Below are positions 6,141 to 64,000 of a stretch of 64,000 bases of DNA, piece by piece; the stretch's first letter is position 1, and the number at the start of each line of letters is the position of its first letter. The notes beneath the pieces were generated by a model that was not told the origin of the DNA, made no database searches, and saw only the letters and a list, made by a program, of their open reading frames with translations. This stretch comes from Lachnospiraceae bacterium (GTDB taxonomy: Bacteria; Bacillota; Clostridia; Lachnospirales; Lachnospiraceae), in contig JAIKXH010000124.1 of the NCBI GenBank assembly GCA_024684215.1, positions 1 through 64,000 on the forward strand, in the 5' to 3' direction. The translations under genes were made by a program, and so were the position numbers.

Positions 6141-7262
6141 TTATTTCTGTCTGGTATAAAAAGTATAATACGTAGGTGCACATGCTGCGGTGATTTTTTC
6201 GTCAATTCCGTAGGATGATAAGATATCGTCTGTCATTTTGATGATATCATCATGTGAGCAGATTTTTAATCCGTATTCAGAACACTTTGTCATGTAATCA
6301 TCATCGGGCATTACACCGTTTGAAACAGCATCATAGAAAACATAGTATTTGTTTTTTACAAGCTCTTCATAATAGGTTTCGTAGTCCTCGTCGGCATTTT
6401 GCTCTCTGAAATCTTCAAATGAGTATGCATCGCAGGTATAGTCTTCGGAATACTCCATATTCGCAGGAACAAGATCGTCTATCCAGCTTATGGGAAGAGC
6501 ATCCATGGGAATTATGGGAGTGCTGAGTCCTGAATAAGTTGTGCATGAGAAGAGCCTGTATGTCTCACCGTCGGAAGATATAAATGAAGATGAGGAGTAA
6601 TATATAGCAGCTCCGCCGCTACCGTCCTCTATGATGTATCCGGCATAGTTGATATTGGTATTTGAACGGTAGAATGTCTGCTTTGCACAGATAAGGGTGA
6701 GTTCGTCAAACATAGGGCGAATAACAAGATAATCGATAAGCTGTTCGGAGTATTCCTCACCTCTGTCGTAAGTAAGTTTAAGCAAAAGCTCGGGTTCGCC
6801 GTTTAAGCAGCAATCAATGAATGCATACTCCGCAGAAACAAGGTCTGAGGGAAGAGAATCTGTGTCAAGTCCCTCTTTGTGTCCGTCCAGGAGATCTTCA
6901 TATGAATATGTACCGTCATTAAAATACTGAGTGGCGTTTACATATACATTTTCATTTCCCAAAAGAAAGTTTTTGTATCTTTCGATTGAAGCAAGAGCGG
7001 TTTCTGAGGTGAAAGCTGAAGTGTCAGCCTCGTCAAAGACTGAAGTGCCTGAATCTGCTGCGGGCTCTGAAACGGGCTCTGAGGCAGGCTCGGTTACTTC
7101 TGATTCGGTACTTGATGCGGTATTTGCATCATCCGAAACGTTTTGGTTATCGGTTACGATGGGCTCAGAGGGTAATTCCTGAGAGCTGTCTTTTGCGCTG
7201 CAACCTGAAAGAACAGCAATAAGTGCAGATGAAAGAATTAATGCTAATAATCTTTTTTTCAT
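6141..7262 (-). CDS. Uncharacterised lipoprotein
   Basis: 373 residues with a lipoprotein signal peptide (MKKRLLALILSS, lipobox LSGC). A low-complexity Ser/Glu/Pro linker (about 25-75, including EPASEPVSEPAA) precedes a folded region (about 85-373) rich in Tyr, Asp and Glu with several Cys. I recognise no family; the layout of signal, acidic linker and globular domain is common for surface lipoproteins in Lachnospiraceae. An AAAGGAGAG ribosome site lies 7 nt before the ATG. It is a single-gene unit, convergent with the permease operon and divergent from glyA. Confidence 0.7.
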   Translation of the reverse strand: MKKRLLALILSSALIAVLSGCSAKDSSQELPSEPIVTDNQNVSDDANTASSTESEVTEPASEPVSEPAADSGTSVFDEADTSAFTSETALASIERYKNFLLGNENVYVNATQYFNDGTYSYEDLLDGHKEGLDTDSLPSDLVSAEYAFIDCCLNGEPELLLKLTYDRGEEYSEQLIDYLVIRPMFDELTLICAKQTFYRSNTNINYAGYIIEDGSGGAAIYYSSSSFISSDGETYRLFSCTTYSGLSTPIIPMDALPISWIDDLVPANMEYSEDYTCDAYSFEDFREQNADEDYETYYEELVKNKYYVFYDAVSNGVMPDDDYMTKCSEYGLKICSHDDIIKMTDDILSSYGIDEKITAACAPTYYTFYTRQK

Positions 7263-7369
7263 GGTTTTTCTCTCCTTTATAAAATGAATATATGTTTAAA
7301 TTTGCACGGTGTCAATCGGCAGCGTACTAAAAATTGTTAATAATTTAGAGTTTTTTTAAAAGATTATTA

Positions 7370-7398
7370 TTGAAAGAAATATATATATAAATTATAAT
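7370..7398 (+). promoter_or_regulatory. SigmaA-type promoter for glyA
   Basis: TTGAAA (7370-7375), a 17-bp spacer and a perfect TATAAT (7393-7398) lie 50 bp upstream of the glyA start. No riboswitch-like fold is apparent in the short leader. Confidence 0.75.
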
Positions 7399-59643: not shown

Positions 59644-60252
59644 ATGGAAAAATACGGTTATATCAGAGTATCTTCTCGCGACCAGAATCCTGAAAGACAA
59701 ATTGAGGCACTTAAAGAATATGGGGTAAAAAGTAAAAACATTTTCATGGATTTTATTTCGGGGAAAGATTTTAACAGACCTAAATATAAAGCCTTAATGA
59801 AAAAAATAAAGCCCGGAGATGTTTTCGTAATAAAAAGTATAGACAGACTTGGGAGAAATTATAAGGAAATACTTGAGCAATGGCGAACTATCTGCAGTAA
59901 GAAAAAAGCAGATATAGAAGTTATCGAGTTCCCTCTTTTAAACACTAATCAAAGCAAGGATGGTCTTACAGGAGTATTTATTTCAGATATTACATTGCAA
60001 ATTCTTGCTTATTTATCACAATCTGAACGAGAAATGATAAAAAAACGTCAGGCGGAGGGGATAGCTATAGCAAAAGCAAAGGGAATAAAGTTTGGCGCAG
60101 AAAGAAAAAAAGACCCGGAATCATTTAGTGAGTATTACGATTTGTGGATCAAAGATAAGATATCAACAAGAGATGCAGCCAAGTTAACGGGAATGAGTCA
60201 TTCAACTTTTTACAGACGGTGTATAGAACTAAAAAAAGAAAATATAGTTTGA
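59644..60252 (+). CDS. Serine recombinase (resolvase/invertase family)
   Basis: 202 residues, the size of small resolvases/invertases. YIRVSSRDQNPERQ carries the nucleophilic serine, DFISGKDFNRPKYKALMKK and IKSIDRLGRNYKEI are the next conserved blocks, and SEREMIKKRQAEGI begins helix E. The C-terminal TRDAAKLTGMSHSTFYRRC is a helix-turn-helix DNA-binding domain. It is full length with no lesions. AAAGGAG lies upstream of the ATG. A perfect inverted repeat follows 17 nt after its stop. Confidence 0.93.
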   Translation: MEKYGYIRVSSRDQNPERQIEALKEYGVKSKNIFMDFISGKDFNRPKYKALMKKIKPGDVFVIKSIDRLGRNYKEILEQWRTICSKKKADIEVIEFPLLNTNQSKDGLTGVFISDITLQILAYLSQSEREMIKKRQAEGIAIAKAKGIKFGAERKKDPESFSEYYDLWIKDKISTRDAAKLTGMSHSTFYRRCIELKKENIV

Positions 60253-60269
60253 AAAATGGTTCTTAAGGT

Positions 60270-60365
60270 AGACTTTTTGAAACATCTTATGATACAATCA
60301 TTAAGTCGTATTATCGGTGCTTTTTTCAAATGCAACATCCGCATGGACGCTGTTTCAAAAAGTCT
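60270..60365. repeat. Inverted repeat (15-bp arms, 66-bp centre) beside the recombinase
   Basis: AGACTTTTTGAAACA (60270-60284) and TGTTTCAAAAAGTCT (60351-60365) are exact inverse complements. The centre (60285-60350) has no promoter I can identify. It may be a recombination site pair or the ends of a small element. Confidence 0.75.
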
Positions 60366-60443
60366 GCTTTTTGAAATGAAAAGAACCGAGTTTACGAGAA
60401 TATAATTTTATATAAATCATAGAAATGATTTACGGAGGAAAAA

Positions 60444-61451
60444 ATGTTTTGTAAAAAGTGTGGAGCGGAAATAAAAAACAATGTTGCCTTTTGCCCTAAA
60501 TGTGGCTTTAAAGTCACAGATGGAGGAGAGAATTCGGAAACGAAAAGTGTTAGTACAGAAAAAAGAGCAGAGGTTTGCCGCAAGGATGCTAAGAAACGCA
60601 AAAAAACGATTGCAATCGTTACGCCGATCATTATTATCGCCTGCATTGCGTTTGTGATTGTTCTGACAACGGTTATCATTCCAGGAAACAAGTATAGTTC
60701 TGCAATGGAACTGTATAACTCTCAACAGTACGAGGAGGCATACAAAGCATTTAACTCTTTAAATTTTAAAGACAGTGCCGACAAAGCAGCTGATTGCCTG
60801 TTCCTGCAACAAAAACCAGGACTGACAAACGTAACCGTTGGCTCGACAATAAAATTTGGCTTCTATGAGCAAGATAACAACAGATCTAACGGGAAAGAGG
60901 AAATAGAGTGGAAAGTACTTGCCGTAGAAGGAAATAGAATATTTGTTATCAGTCAATATGCACTGGATTATCAACCGTATAATTCATCGGGTACGAACAC
61001 GACATGGGAAACGAACGTGACATGGGAAACCTGTACACTACGTAAATGGCTTAACGAGACATTTTATAATACGGCGTTTGGAACGTATCACCAGCAAATG
61101 GTAAGCAGCTCTACAGTTACTGCTGACAATAATCCGAATTACGATACAAGCCCCGGTAACAGCACAACGGATCAGGTATTCCTGCTGAGCATCACGGAAG
61201 CAGAGAAATACTTCGGTTCGGACGGTGCGCGTCAGTGTCAAGGAACCGCTTACTGCTATGCGCAAAGACCAGACAAAAGCGACAATGGAAATTGCTCTTG
61301 GTGGCTGCGGACGCCCGGCTACGAGCCGATCGGCTCCGGTTCTTGGGAGTATGCAGATGTCCTCTACGACGGCTCCGTCGAATACTACGGTTCCAATGTC
61401 GGCAACAGCTTAGCAGTTCGGCCCGCTTTGTGGATAAATCTCGGATCTTAA
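60444..61451 (+). CDS. Zinc-ribbon membrane protein with a C-type-lectin-like (DUF6273-type) domain
   Basis: 335 residues. A zinc ribbon (CKKCG...CPKCG, residues 3-21) is followed by a basic linker, one membrane helix (about 53-76), a TPR-like helical pair (YSSAMELYNSQQYEEAYKAF) and a large domain (about 128-335) that should face outward. That domain has FGFYEQDN, IEWKVLAVEGNRIFVIS, LRKWLNETFYNTAF and a C-terminal NCSWWLRTPG...DGSVEYYG...AVRPALWINLGS. The last part resembles the WWLR...GVRPAL ends of lectin-fold proteins diversified by retroelements. Its codons (GGC, GTC, CTC, TCC) and GC are unlike the rest of the gene. GGAGG precedes the ATG. Confidence 0.8.
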   Translation: MFCKKCGAEIKNNVAFCPKCGFKVTDGGENSETKSVSTEKRAEVCRKDAKKRKKTIAIVTPIIIIACIAFVIVLTTVIIPGNKYSSAMELYNSQQYEEAYKAFNSLNFKDSADKAADCLFLQQKPGLTNVTVGSTIKFGFYEQDNNRSNGKEEIEWKVLAVEGNRIFVISQYALDYQPYNSSGTNTTWETNVTWETCTLRKWLNETFYNTAFGTYHQQMVSSSTVTADNNPNYDTSPGNSTTDQVFLLSITEAEKYFGSDGARQCQGTAYCYAQRPDKSDNGNCSWWLRTPGYEPIGSGSWEYADVLYDGSVEYYGSNVGNSLAVRPALWINLGS

Positions 61452-61476
61452 ATCTTCTAATCTGAAATCTTCCACA

Positions 61477-61562
61477 GCGCCGAAGGCGCAAATCTCAGCG
61501 GGCGTAGCCCGCAATCGCAAGTGAGAAGCACTTGCCATATCCGCCGTAAGGCGGTCGCGCGA
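61477..61562. repeat. Array of four short hairpins plus a palindrome
   Basis: GCGCC-GAA-GGCGC (61477-61489), GCGGGC-GTA-GCCCGC (61498-61512), GCAAGTG-AGAAG-CACTTGC (61517-61535), CCGCC-GTAA-GGCGG (61541-61554) and the palindrome TCGCGCGA (61555-61562). All stems are perfect. The array begins 25 nt after the stop of the lectin-like gene and ends at the truncation point of the IS30 fragment. Confidence 0.85.
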
Positions 61563-62057
61563 TATAACCGGAAACAGTGTGGCGAAGACCTCATGTCCTA
61601 ACAGCTCGTAAAGCCTGTTGAAGACCGCTGTAACGCTTCTGGCGGTGTTGTGATCACGGATGAATACAAGCATCAGTGAACAGCTCCTGAAATAGATTGT
61701 GAGGAAGACCTTGCCGCCCTTACGGCCTTCGACCGAGTCCATCTCCACGATGGCTACATCGGGGTTGGTGGCAATGAATTCCTGGAAGTCATCGTAAGTG
61801 CGTCCTACATGGCACTGCTTATCGACACGGACGGGCTTTTTCTTCTTTTGTACTCTGTACCGCACTTTCCTGGGAAGGTCGATGTTGCCAACGGAAAGAA
61901 GCTCTGCATCGATATAGTTGTAGATGGGTTTCTCATCCAGCATGATTTCATCTACGTTCTCAATGCATATGTGATGGATTGACTGTCCCTGCTTCACGAG
62001 AGGAGCGATGATTGCATCAATACGCTTAAGTTCCTCCTCGTAACCCGCGAGCCTTTT
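61563..62057 (-). pseudogene. IS30-family transposase fragment
   Basis: The minus-strand frame opens after TGA (62058-62060) with KRLAGYEEELKRIDAIIAPL and continues through IYNYIDAELLSVGNIDLPRK, HVGRTYDDFQEFI and VEMDSVEGRKGGKVFLTI, where the first catalytic Asp lies. The frame then reads LGHEVFATLFPVI and stops matching exactly where the hairpin array begins; the expected TDNGSEF with the second Asp is missing. The N-terminal helix-turn-helix is also missing. The element is dead at both ends. The gap 62061-62280 is AT-rich with no gene. Confidence 0.85.
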
Positions 62058-62280: not shown

Positions 62281-64000
62281 ATGGATTTTAGAAAATTTAT
62301 ATCGTTTTTTTTGATGTTTGTTATTGTTACATCTACTTTCATGGGATGTAGTAACGAGGATAGTAATGAGTCCTATGCGATGAATGAAACAAAGGAAAAC
62401 AGCGATTCTGTTGTCGCTATAGAAGAAACTGTAGAAATATCATTAAATGAGAAGACTGATTATAGTGAGAATAAGGATTCAGCGAACTCTATAGACACTG
62501 TAGAAGTTCCTATTATTTTTTATGATTTGACTTGGGAAGAAGTGGAAAAAGAATTATCTGATTTTTGCACTGAAAGAGAGAATGTCTGTAGGAATAGTTC
62601 TGATCTGTTCCTTGAGAAAGCACGTGAAGAAGTATTTTGCCTTTTGAAGGCTTACGAGGGAATAATACAATTAGAGTACGAGAACTGGGATACACGTGAA
62701 GAAATTTTTAAAGACGAAGTGCTTGATACTATATGCGGAGGAAACTCTATCGCCATGGCTGCGGTAGGAGAAGCGCTGGATTGTTTCGAGAGCGGAAAAG
62801 GAATCAGTGAAACTTTTGAAAGAAGTATGAATGCTGCAGTGGCTGCAATACCTGACTATGTTCAAGGGGAATTTCTTGATATGTTTTGCGGAGGGATTAT
62901 AGGAAAAGTTATTGAAGTATATAACAGCTATGAAAAGAACACCAATATACAGATTAAGTATGCTATCAGCTTGATGCAGAATCAACTTGATGCATCTGTA
63001 CAAAAGATGGTACTGATACTTGGAAATAAAGAAATGACCGGCGATGAGTTAGCCGAATGTATAAAGGAATTTGATGATACTTATTATATCGTTAAGGAGT
63101 TGAATCAACGCTTCAAAATAGAAGCACCGATGGATGAATGGAAAATGCTTTCCTACATGTTAACGGCTAATTATTATGGGTATAAAACAAATCAGTTATT
63201 GTTAGGCTTTTATGAAACGGGGCACAGTGTTGAATTAGATGATTTCGAAGCTTTTAAAAAAAGAAATCCTGAACTTACTGAGGATAAAATGAGAGAAAAG
63301 TATTTGGAACTTGATGATTATTTATTCGGCTTGGATGGGTTTGTTTTAGATTGCTTTGAGATTCCATGCAATGTTGAAGAATTAAATGTTCGCGAGTTTG
63401 ATTATGGGCAAATCGAGGAAGATTCCTTAAAAAATACTGCGGTAGGCTTGGCTAGTGATATTTTTGGGAATTTTATAACGTCAATGTTTGTGTCGGATGA
63501 GGTATATTCAGATAATGCATATGTTGATGAATTATACAATTTGTCTAAGGAATTGGAATCTGCACTGGATACCTACGAAAAAGGTATTAACGACTGGGCT
63601 AAGATCACAGAGGAGATTCAGCAACTATACGGAGAGTGGACCAGTATTCTTGGAGATAATGAAATATCACAAAGAGAGAAAATATTGTTTTGGTTTTTAT
63701 ATGAAAACTATTATGGAACTGAAAGCAAGCCCTCAGAAGCCTTTTATCATGAGCGAATTGTTTCGGATATTAGCGATGTATCAGCTTATAAGATGATACT
63801 AGATCGGTATTTGATAGACTTTGACAGATGCGTTCTGCGCTCTGATTATGAGACGAATAAGAATTATATACATAAAGCAGAAAGATTGAGCGAATATCTG
63901 GGACGAAAATTATCCGATTATGTCGATGAAAACATTGAGACTAGGGATACTTCGTATGTAGTTTCGGCAAGTACAGACAGTTATATTGCTGTTGTCAATA
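62281..64000 (+). CDS. Large putative lipoprotein, 3' partial, unknown function
   Basis: At least 573 residues; the frame is open at the window end. MDFRKFISFFLMFVIV leads to TSTFMGCSN, a plausible lipobox with Cys22. An acidic linker (23-80) is followed by a long, mostly helical region rich in Glu, Asp, Tyr and Cys without any transmembrane segment. I recognise no family. AGGAGAATTCT gives a good ribosome site. It has strong AT codon preference, unlike the GC-rich tail of the lectin-like gene before it. Confidence 0.75.
   Translation, partial: MDFRKFISFFLMFVIVTSTFMGCSNEDSNESYAMNETKENSDSVVAIEETVEISLNEKTDYSENKDSANSIDTVEVPIIFYDLTWEEVEKELSDFCTERENVCRNSSDLFLEKAREEVFCLLKAYEGIIQLEYENWDTREEIFKDEVLDTICGGNSIAMAAVGEALDCFESGKGISETFERSMNAAVAAIPDYVQGEFLDMFCGGIIGKVIEVYNSYEKNTNIQIKYAISLMQNQLDASVQKMVLILGNKEMTGDELAECIKEFDDTYYIVKELNQRFKIEAPMDEWKMLSYMLTANYYGYKTNQLLLGFYETGHSVELDDFEAFKKRNPELTEDKMREKYLELDDYLFGLDGFVLDCFEIPCNVEELNVREFDYGQIEEDSLKNTAVGLASDIFGNFITSMFVSDEVYSDNAYVDELYNLSKELESALDTYEKGINDWAKITEEIQQLYGEWTSILGDNEISQREKILFWFLYENYYGTESKPSEAFYHERIVSDISDVSAYKMILDRYLIDFDRCVLRSDYETNKNYIHKAERLSEYLGRKLSDYVDENIETRDTSYVVSASTDSYIAVVN

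Follow-up and report, generated by a model that had tools for sequence, protein, structure and literature searches.

In the current analysis, we identified a gene for a DUF6273 target-type protein (60444..61451, plus strand) that we read, with a probability of roughly three in four, as an orphaned and degenerate target of a diversity-generating retroelement (DGR), one whose machinery is absent and whose landing site is still recognizable. The gene lies in a window of 64,000 nt (the whole stretch of DNA analyzed: Lachnospiraceae bacterium, contig JAIKXH010000124.1, positions 1 to 64,000 of the forward strand), and its source genome, G000, is a 2.79-Mb assembly. Mutagenic homing would have rewritten the C-terminal loops of the ancestor, a lectin-like DUF6273 protein anchored in the membrane. 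Reverse transcriptase (RT) and Avd would have copied an asparagine-codon (AAY) template RNA, randomizing its adenines, and the cDNA would then have replaced a variable repeat adjoining a GC-rich IMH (initiation of mutagenic homing) and hairpin DNA. In the window lineage, avd, template and RT would have been lost or never brought along, and the tail would no longer be rewritten in the assembled genome; homology ends at 61563, the expected start of avd, and a broken IS30-type element follows. We infer both the ancestry of the tail as a rewritten repeat and the cause of the cassette loss at this locus; the tail is probably no longer writable.

The window protein and its relatives

The gene encodes 335 amino acids (defined by its ORF, Pfam and AlphaFold2) in the order zinc ribbon, basic stretch, hydrophobic helix, short helical-repeat linker and DUF6273. 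The zinc ribbon (CxxC...CxxC, residues 2-24, 60447..60515) matches Pfam PF13240 Zn_Ribbon_1 (E=3.3e-07); a membrane helix is predicted from reading the sequence at residues ~55-80 (60606..60683), with KKRKK just before it; and the DUF6273 domain (PF19789, E=1.1e-25) covers residues 165-332 (60936..61439), all on the plus strand. The ORF, motifs and stop positions listed in an initial annotation of this DNA were all found in place. In the AlphaFold2 model (mean pLDDT 90.3), a helix spanning residues 34-92 covers the predicted membrane helix, which is presumably inserted in the membrane. Structure comparison showed the model to resemble predicted viral DUF6273 proteins, and its best PDB fold match was the T. 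ramosa IgA peptidase (E=2.8e-06), the N-terminal domain of which is DUF6273 (PMC12402451). At a cutoff of E<=0.001, the fold matches included no classical C-type lectin; that DUF6273 has a lectin fold is taken from PMC10743442. A PDB sequence search with an alignment of the protein and a PADLOC search with the protein itself gave no match, and viral contigs yielded no close relative of the whole protein beyond one weak zinc-ribbon match. G000 contains this one DUF6273 gene only, and matches to it in same-genus genomes are all distant.

Relatives were found at 78 loci in the genome collection. Ten of these were scanned: seven contain TIR and end in DUF6273, one combines a kinase with Ig-like repeats, and the other two resemble the window protein in being short, a zinc ribbon being present in one of them. 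The kinase relative (L058:3925-6633) joins a Ser/Thr kinase to Ig-like repeats and DUF6273, and its kinase part resembles the PD-T4-6 and mad6 defence kinases in PADLOC. The succession of cytosolic domain, basic stretch, membrane helix and DUF6273 suggests an outside-facing binding domain tied to an inside domain; judging from charge and domain order, the lectin-like face would be displayed outside the cell. In Thiohalocapsa, DGR-diversified lectin domains are found on TIR, kinase or membrane proteins that have been proposed to be antigen sensors (PMC10907252). Given this domain order and these analogues, a sensing or binding role is our best guess for the window protein. It is probably still functional in binding or sensing, though no longer variable, with the zinc ribbon inside and DUF6273 outside, and would presumably bind a ligand.

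An adenine footprint in relatives and the tail of the window gene

In gut phages, DUF6273 has already been described as a DGR target whose variable region lies at the C terminus of the domain (PMC10743442, PMC11792537). The phage tentaclins and target 2 proteins (PMC10743442) and the targets of Faecalibacterium prophages (PMC11792537) share with the window protein the DUF6273 domain, a C-terminal repeat and edges of the WWLR..P...GVRP type. However, the phage targets adjoin their RT and template, whereas the window protein is of a cellular type, a zinc-ribbon membrane protein without a cassette. In viral contigs L240, L241, L242 and L244, a DGR template lies ~2 kb upstream of a DUF6273-like target, and nearly all mismatches between variable repeat and template (VR/TR) fall at template A. 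Four phage DGRs with DUF6273-like targets had 72 of 73 VR/TR mismatches at template A.

Among cellular relatives, locus L052 (contig DCHY01000046.1, Clostridiales bacterium UBA1740) holds a complete DGR, comprising a DUF6273 target, a hairpin run, Avd (phrog_3206, E=7e-21), a template and an RT (phrog_1423, E=6.7e-118). The target, a membrane protein of the TIR-TPR type, has 46% identity with the window protein over its membrane and DUF6273 part; the two loci also share the same IMH-stop-hairpin DNA, and the final hairpin ahead of avd in L052 has its counterpart at the same position in the window. They differ in the TIR-TPR N-terminal half of the L052 protein and in its locus having retained Avd, template and RT. 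The L052 template is rich in asparagine codons and reads WWLRSPGNNQNNAANVNNDGSVNSNGNNVNNDNDCVRPA. At L052 itself, the assembly has Ns in place of the VR, which is why an automatic scan for VR/TR pairs within loci missed this locus.

We used the L052 template as a ruler for 46 tails of equal length that came from other loci. On average, they matched it at 0.40 of the adenines in AA codons and at 0.79 of the non-A codon positions 1/2; for L041 and both L046 tails, which come from other genomes, the values were 0.39-0.43 at template A versus 0.96-0.98 at non-A positions 1/2. The two L046 targets differ from each other at 23 of 117 bases, 22 of them at template adenines (p about 1e-14), and their upstream domains are merely 70% identical. 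At L071, two tandem DUF6273 domains in one ORF (tails 6499-6612 and 7279-7392) are about 96% identical upstream (13/300 differences) and their variable tails are 27% different (31/114), with the tail differences falling mostly at codon positions 1 and 2 (13, 13 and 5 by position). The window protein thus belongs to a family in which template-matched variable repeats have been demonstrated, both in its relatives and, as published, in phages.

The tail of the window gene carries marks of the same kind. The constant 5′ edge of the repeat, WWLRTPG (TGGTGGCTGCGGACGCCCGGC, 61299..61319, plus strand), is nearly identical at the DNA level between the window gene, its relatives and the L052 template, and it is followed by a variable-repeat-like core (residues 293-324, 61320..61415, plus strand) delimited by codon alignment with that template and with relatives. 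Against the L052 template, the tail matches at 37 of 46 non-A positions 1/2 and at 11 of 26 A positions, counts that depend on gaps placed by hand and on a template from another genome; with the same hand-placed gaps, these rates are close to the family mean. The tail exceeds the L052 repeat by several codons, and its GAG, CCG, TGG, GAA, TTA and GCA codons are not derivable from AAY codons. GAG-CCG is common to L042 and, to judge by the sequence, may be template-constant; the remaining non-AAY codons would need a different template or later drift.

Base composition also sets the tail apart, as the initial annotation had noted. The GC content of the last 55 codons is 0.558 versus 0.38-0.41 in codons 1-240, a value reached by 0.3% of the 165-bp stretches of the window, and C or T occupies the third base in 24 of 32 codons of the variable segment versus 138 of 280 upstream (Fisher p = 0.008). 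The enrichment in TAC, TCC and GGC that had been pointed out is present (3-4 occurrences each in the last 55 codons) and modest. High tail GC is the rule in this family of targets (0.55 vs 0.43; 84 tails, p about 2e-15), which accounts for the shift in the window gene. The broader proposal, that the tail resembles the variable end of a DGR target, is borne out by a domain family with C-terminal variable repeats, by the cassette at L052, by adenine-specific differences in relatives and by the retention of post-stop DNA.

It could be argued that DUF6273 is here an ordinary domain for binding, in which normal selection has varied the exposed C-terminal loops; its likeness to a variable repeat would then come from an inherited fold together with codon bias, and the hairpins would be terminators or a mobile repeat. 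Many DUF6273 proteins do lie far from any RT, several of their genomes having none; the domain is part of a peptidase as well, the IgA peptidase of T. ramosa (PMC12402451); and hairpins after a stop codon could end transcription. We nevertheless consider this improbable, since neither the adenine-specific pattern in relatives, nor the third-base enrichment in C/T, nor noncoding DNA that is more conserved than coding DNA (see below) would be expected from ordinary loop evolution.

The landing site and the place where avd would begin

A putative IMH (GTTCGGCCCGCTTTGTGG, 61416..61433, plus strand) was recognized from a 36-nt identity with relatives; it is GC rich and, on its sequence, sits at the 3′ end of the window repeat. 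From the IMH through the stop, the 36 nt at 61416-61451 share 83-86% identity with six relatives, among them the L052 cassette (83% for L052 itself). Past the stop, 42 nt of conserved noncoding DNA that include the first hairpin (61452..61493, plus strand) are 81-95% identical to L041, L042, L049, L055 and L058, whereas the domain-coding DNA is only 65-72% identical; for L052, the identity over this post-stop DNA is only 65% because of an insertion. Post-stop DNA more conserved than coding DNA is as expected of a conserved target site. The same landing-site DNA is found at L058; because the N-terminal half of that protein is a kinase, the landing site and the domain appear to be common to relatives independently of the rest of the gene.

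Four perfect hairpins follow on the plus strand. Hairpin 1 (GCGCC-GAA-GGCGC, 61477..61489) is present in L041, L042, L052, L055 and L058 and has one stem base altered in L049; hairpin 2 (GCGGGC-GTA-GCCCGC, 61498..61512) is identical in L049; hairpin 3 (61517..61535) is a perfect inverted repeat, GCAAGTG-AGAAG-CACTTGC; and hairpin 4 (CCGCC-GTAA-GGCGG, 61541..61554) has a counterpart directly upstream of avd in L052, L046 and L151. Together they pair 23 bp within 115 bp of the stop, a content reached by none of 3000 dinucleotide shuffles and by no other 120-bp stretch of the window. The run of perfect hairpins had been described as immediately following the stop; the run exists, and its first member begins 25 nt past the stop. 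A universal enrichment in hairpins after DUF6273 genes was considered and rejected: the enrichment is weak (mean 1.24 vs 0.87; three or more hairpins in 11% vs 5%), so the run marks a subset of these genes. As with the IMH of Bordetella phage BPP-1 (PMC3240598), the putative IMH is GC rich and ends the repeat, and hairpin DNA lies downstream. Unlike the Bordetella type, which was defined by experiment and has 7-10 bp stems and GRNA loops 4-34 bp from the VR (PMC3240598), the window hairpins have 5-7 bp stems and 3-5 nt non-GRNA loops, and the first lies ~44 nt past the IMH.

In the window, homology stops at ~61563, the expected start of avd. What follows, on the minus strand, is a transposase remnant truncated at both ends (61566..62057; phrog_4646 transposase, E=8.3e-16), whose translation runs into a stop and which, from a reading of its sequence, appears to be of the IS30 type. 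The initial annotation was right that the 64-kb window holds no RT and no template repeat, and an Rfam search of its 55-64 kb portion gave no match. Upstream, an imperfect inverted repeat (GTAGACTTTTTGAAAC / GTTTCAAAAAGTCTGC, 60264-60375) separates the DUF6273 gene from a serine recombinase gene (59644-60252), and the locus around it may be a site of repeated insertion. On the other side, a long lipoprotein-like ORF (62281-63999) runs off the window end and has no Pfam match.

One might suspect that the join at 61563-61566 is an artifact of assembly and that the real locus runs on into avd, template and RT. Metagenome assemblies break at DGR loci as well as at IS elements, and homology does stop exactly where avd should start. 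However, the cassette should then be found elsewhere in the assembly, and no avd, template or L052-like RT was found there; moreover, the transposase remnant is decayed at both ends and is not the kind of intact repeat that is prone to misjoin contigs. A misassembly is therefore highly improbable. Loss of a cassette can be observed directly at L046, where (7050-7265) ~50 nt of avd are fused in frame to the C terminus of the RT after the same final hairpin; this is a case of cassette loss by internal deletion, beside two diversified TIR-DUF6273 targets.

Missing machinery and probable orphan targets

G000 encodes a single RT, on another contig of 3 kb (C163). It belongs to a complete prophage-type DGR (L001, 211-1876), with the VR ending at ~335 in a tail protein (phrog_5302), the template 338 bp downstream (~551-670) and the RT at 746-1876; over 114 positions, 20 of its 23 VR/TR mismatches fall at template A. 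Since this RT has its own template and its own tail-protein target, it was rejected as the missing partner of the window gene, and its template bears no likeness to the window tail. Chance matches aside, BLAST recovered from G000 only the target itself and an asparagine-rich peptide search recovered no template for the tail; an A-relaxed 40-nt pattern (up to 3 mismatches) likewise found no template, its one extra match being an A-rich stretch with 3 mismatches. An Avd of the L052 type had no match in G000, a search that divergent Avd types could escape. A template able to write the exact window tail was found in none of the genomes or contigs searched. The initial annotation had supposed that a retroelement acts on this gene from elsewhere, had proposed looking in the genome for an RT and for a near-copy of the tail differing at A, and had taken the lack of both RT and template as grounds for refutation. 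The RT is there and a matching template is not, so that half of that lack was found; with no template by three methods, no Avd and an RT that serves an unrelated template, the idea that a retroelement acts on the window copy at present is not supported.

It is nonetheless conceivable that the target is active in trans, with RT, Avd and template in the unassembled part of the genome or arriving at times on a phage or mobile element. The absence of a template is that of an assembly 92% complete in 168 contigs; landing-site DNA has been kept while the coding sequence drifts; and remote targets are documented in Thiohalocapsa (PMC10907252). The tails of G094, a genome 99% complete in which no RT was found, also favor such activity: three of them (L161 and L162 are on G094:C15) differ at 17-21 of 28 template-A columns versus 9-11 of 89 others. 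Either diversification preceded loss of the RT in G094 or the RT came from outside the assembly, and the data fit both. Against trans activity stand the lack of template and Avd in the G000 assembly, the unrelated template of its sole RT and the viral contigs, in which the exact template-edge pattern TGGTGGCTGCGGWCGCCCGGCAAY had no match. Taken together, we regard it as unlikely and favor the orphaned, degenerate target.

The window gene would not be alone in this. We searched for RTs in 30 genomes, picked mostly because they hold related DUF6273 genes, and found none in 13. The RT-less genomes include G053 (93% complete) and, at 99%, G094 and G134, as well as those of L041, L042, L046, L049, L055 and L058, for which completeness figures are not given. 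With no RT detected in 12 or more other genomes that contain such tails, orphan targets look common. A more speculative, and somewhat less probable, extension of activity in trans is that the membrane sensors of gut Clostridia, which pair an outer DUF6273 with an inner TIR, kinase or zinc ribbon, maintain ready landing sites consisting of variable repeat, IMH and hairpin in RT-less genomes and are rewritten by visiting mobile DGRs, the window gene being one such standing target. Such rewriting would be consistent with the template-like appearance of tails in genomes without RT and with the landing site being better conserved than the gene; recent loss of the cassette fits equally well.

Earlier work described DUF6273 targets from phages and, for a single multicellular bacterium, DGR loci that have degenerated. 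That bacterium, Thiohalocapsa PB-PSB1 (PMC10907252), resembles the present case in having cellular targets, in which sensors with a lectin fold are joined to TIR, kinase or membrane proteins, and in its degenerate loci, where RT or template has been lost and transposon remnants have inserted. It differs in lineage and target families, and several orphans there match a remote template, whereas none was found for the window gene. Our results point to numerous cellular DUF6273 targets in gut Clostridia, carried by membrane proteins of the TIR, kinase and zinc-ribbon kinds and mostly lacking adjoining machinery, and it is this wider class of orphans that we find the interesting part of the finding. 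The method of one survey, by its own account, misses targets remote from the RT (PMC8144416). The common landing-site DNA offers a simple handle for the orphan targets that RT-centered surveys miss, and if the proteins are sensors, their tails would be a record of past or borrowed hypermutation.
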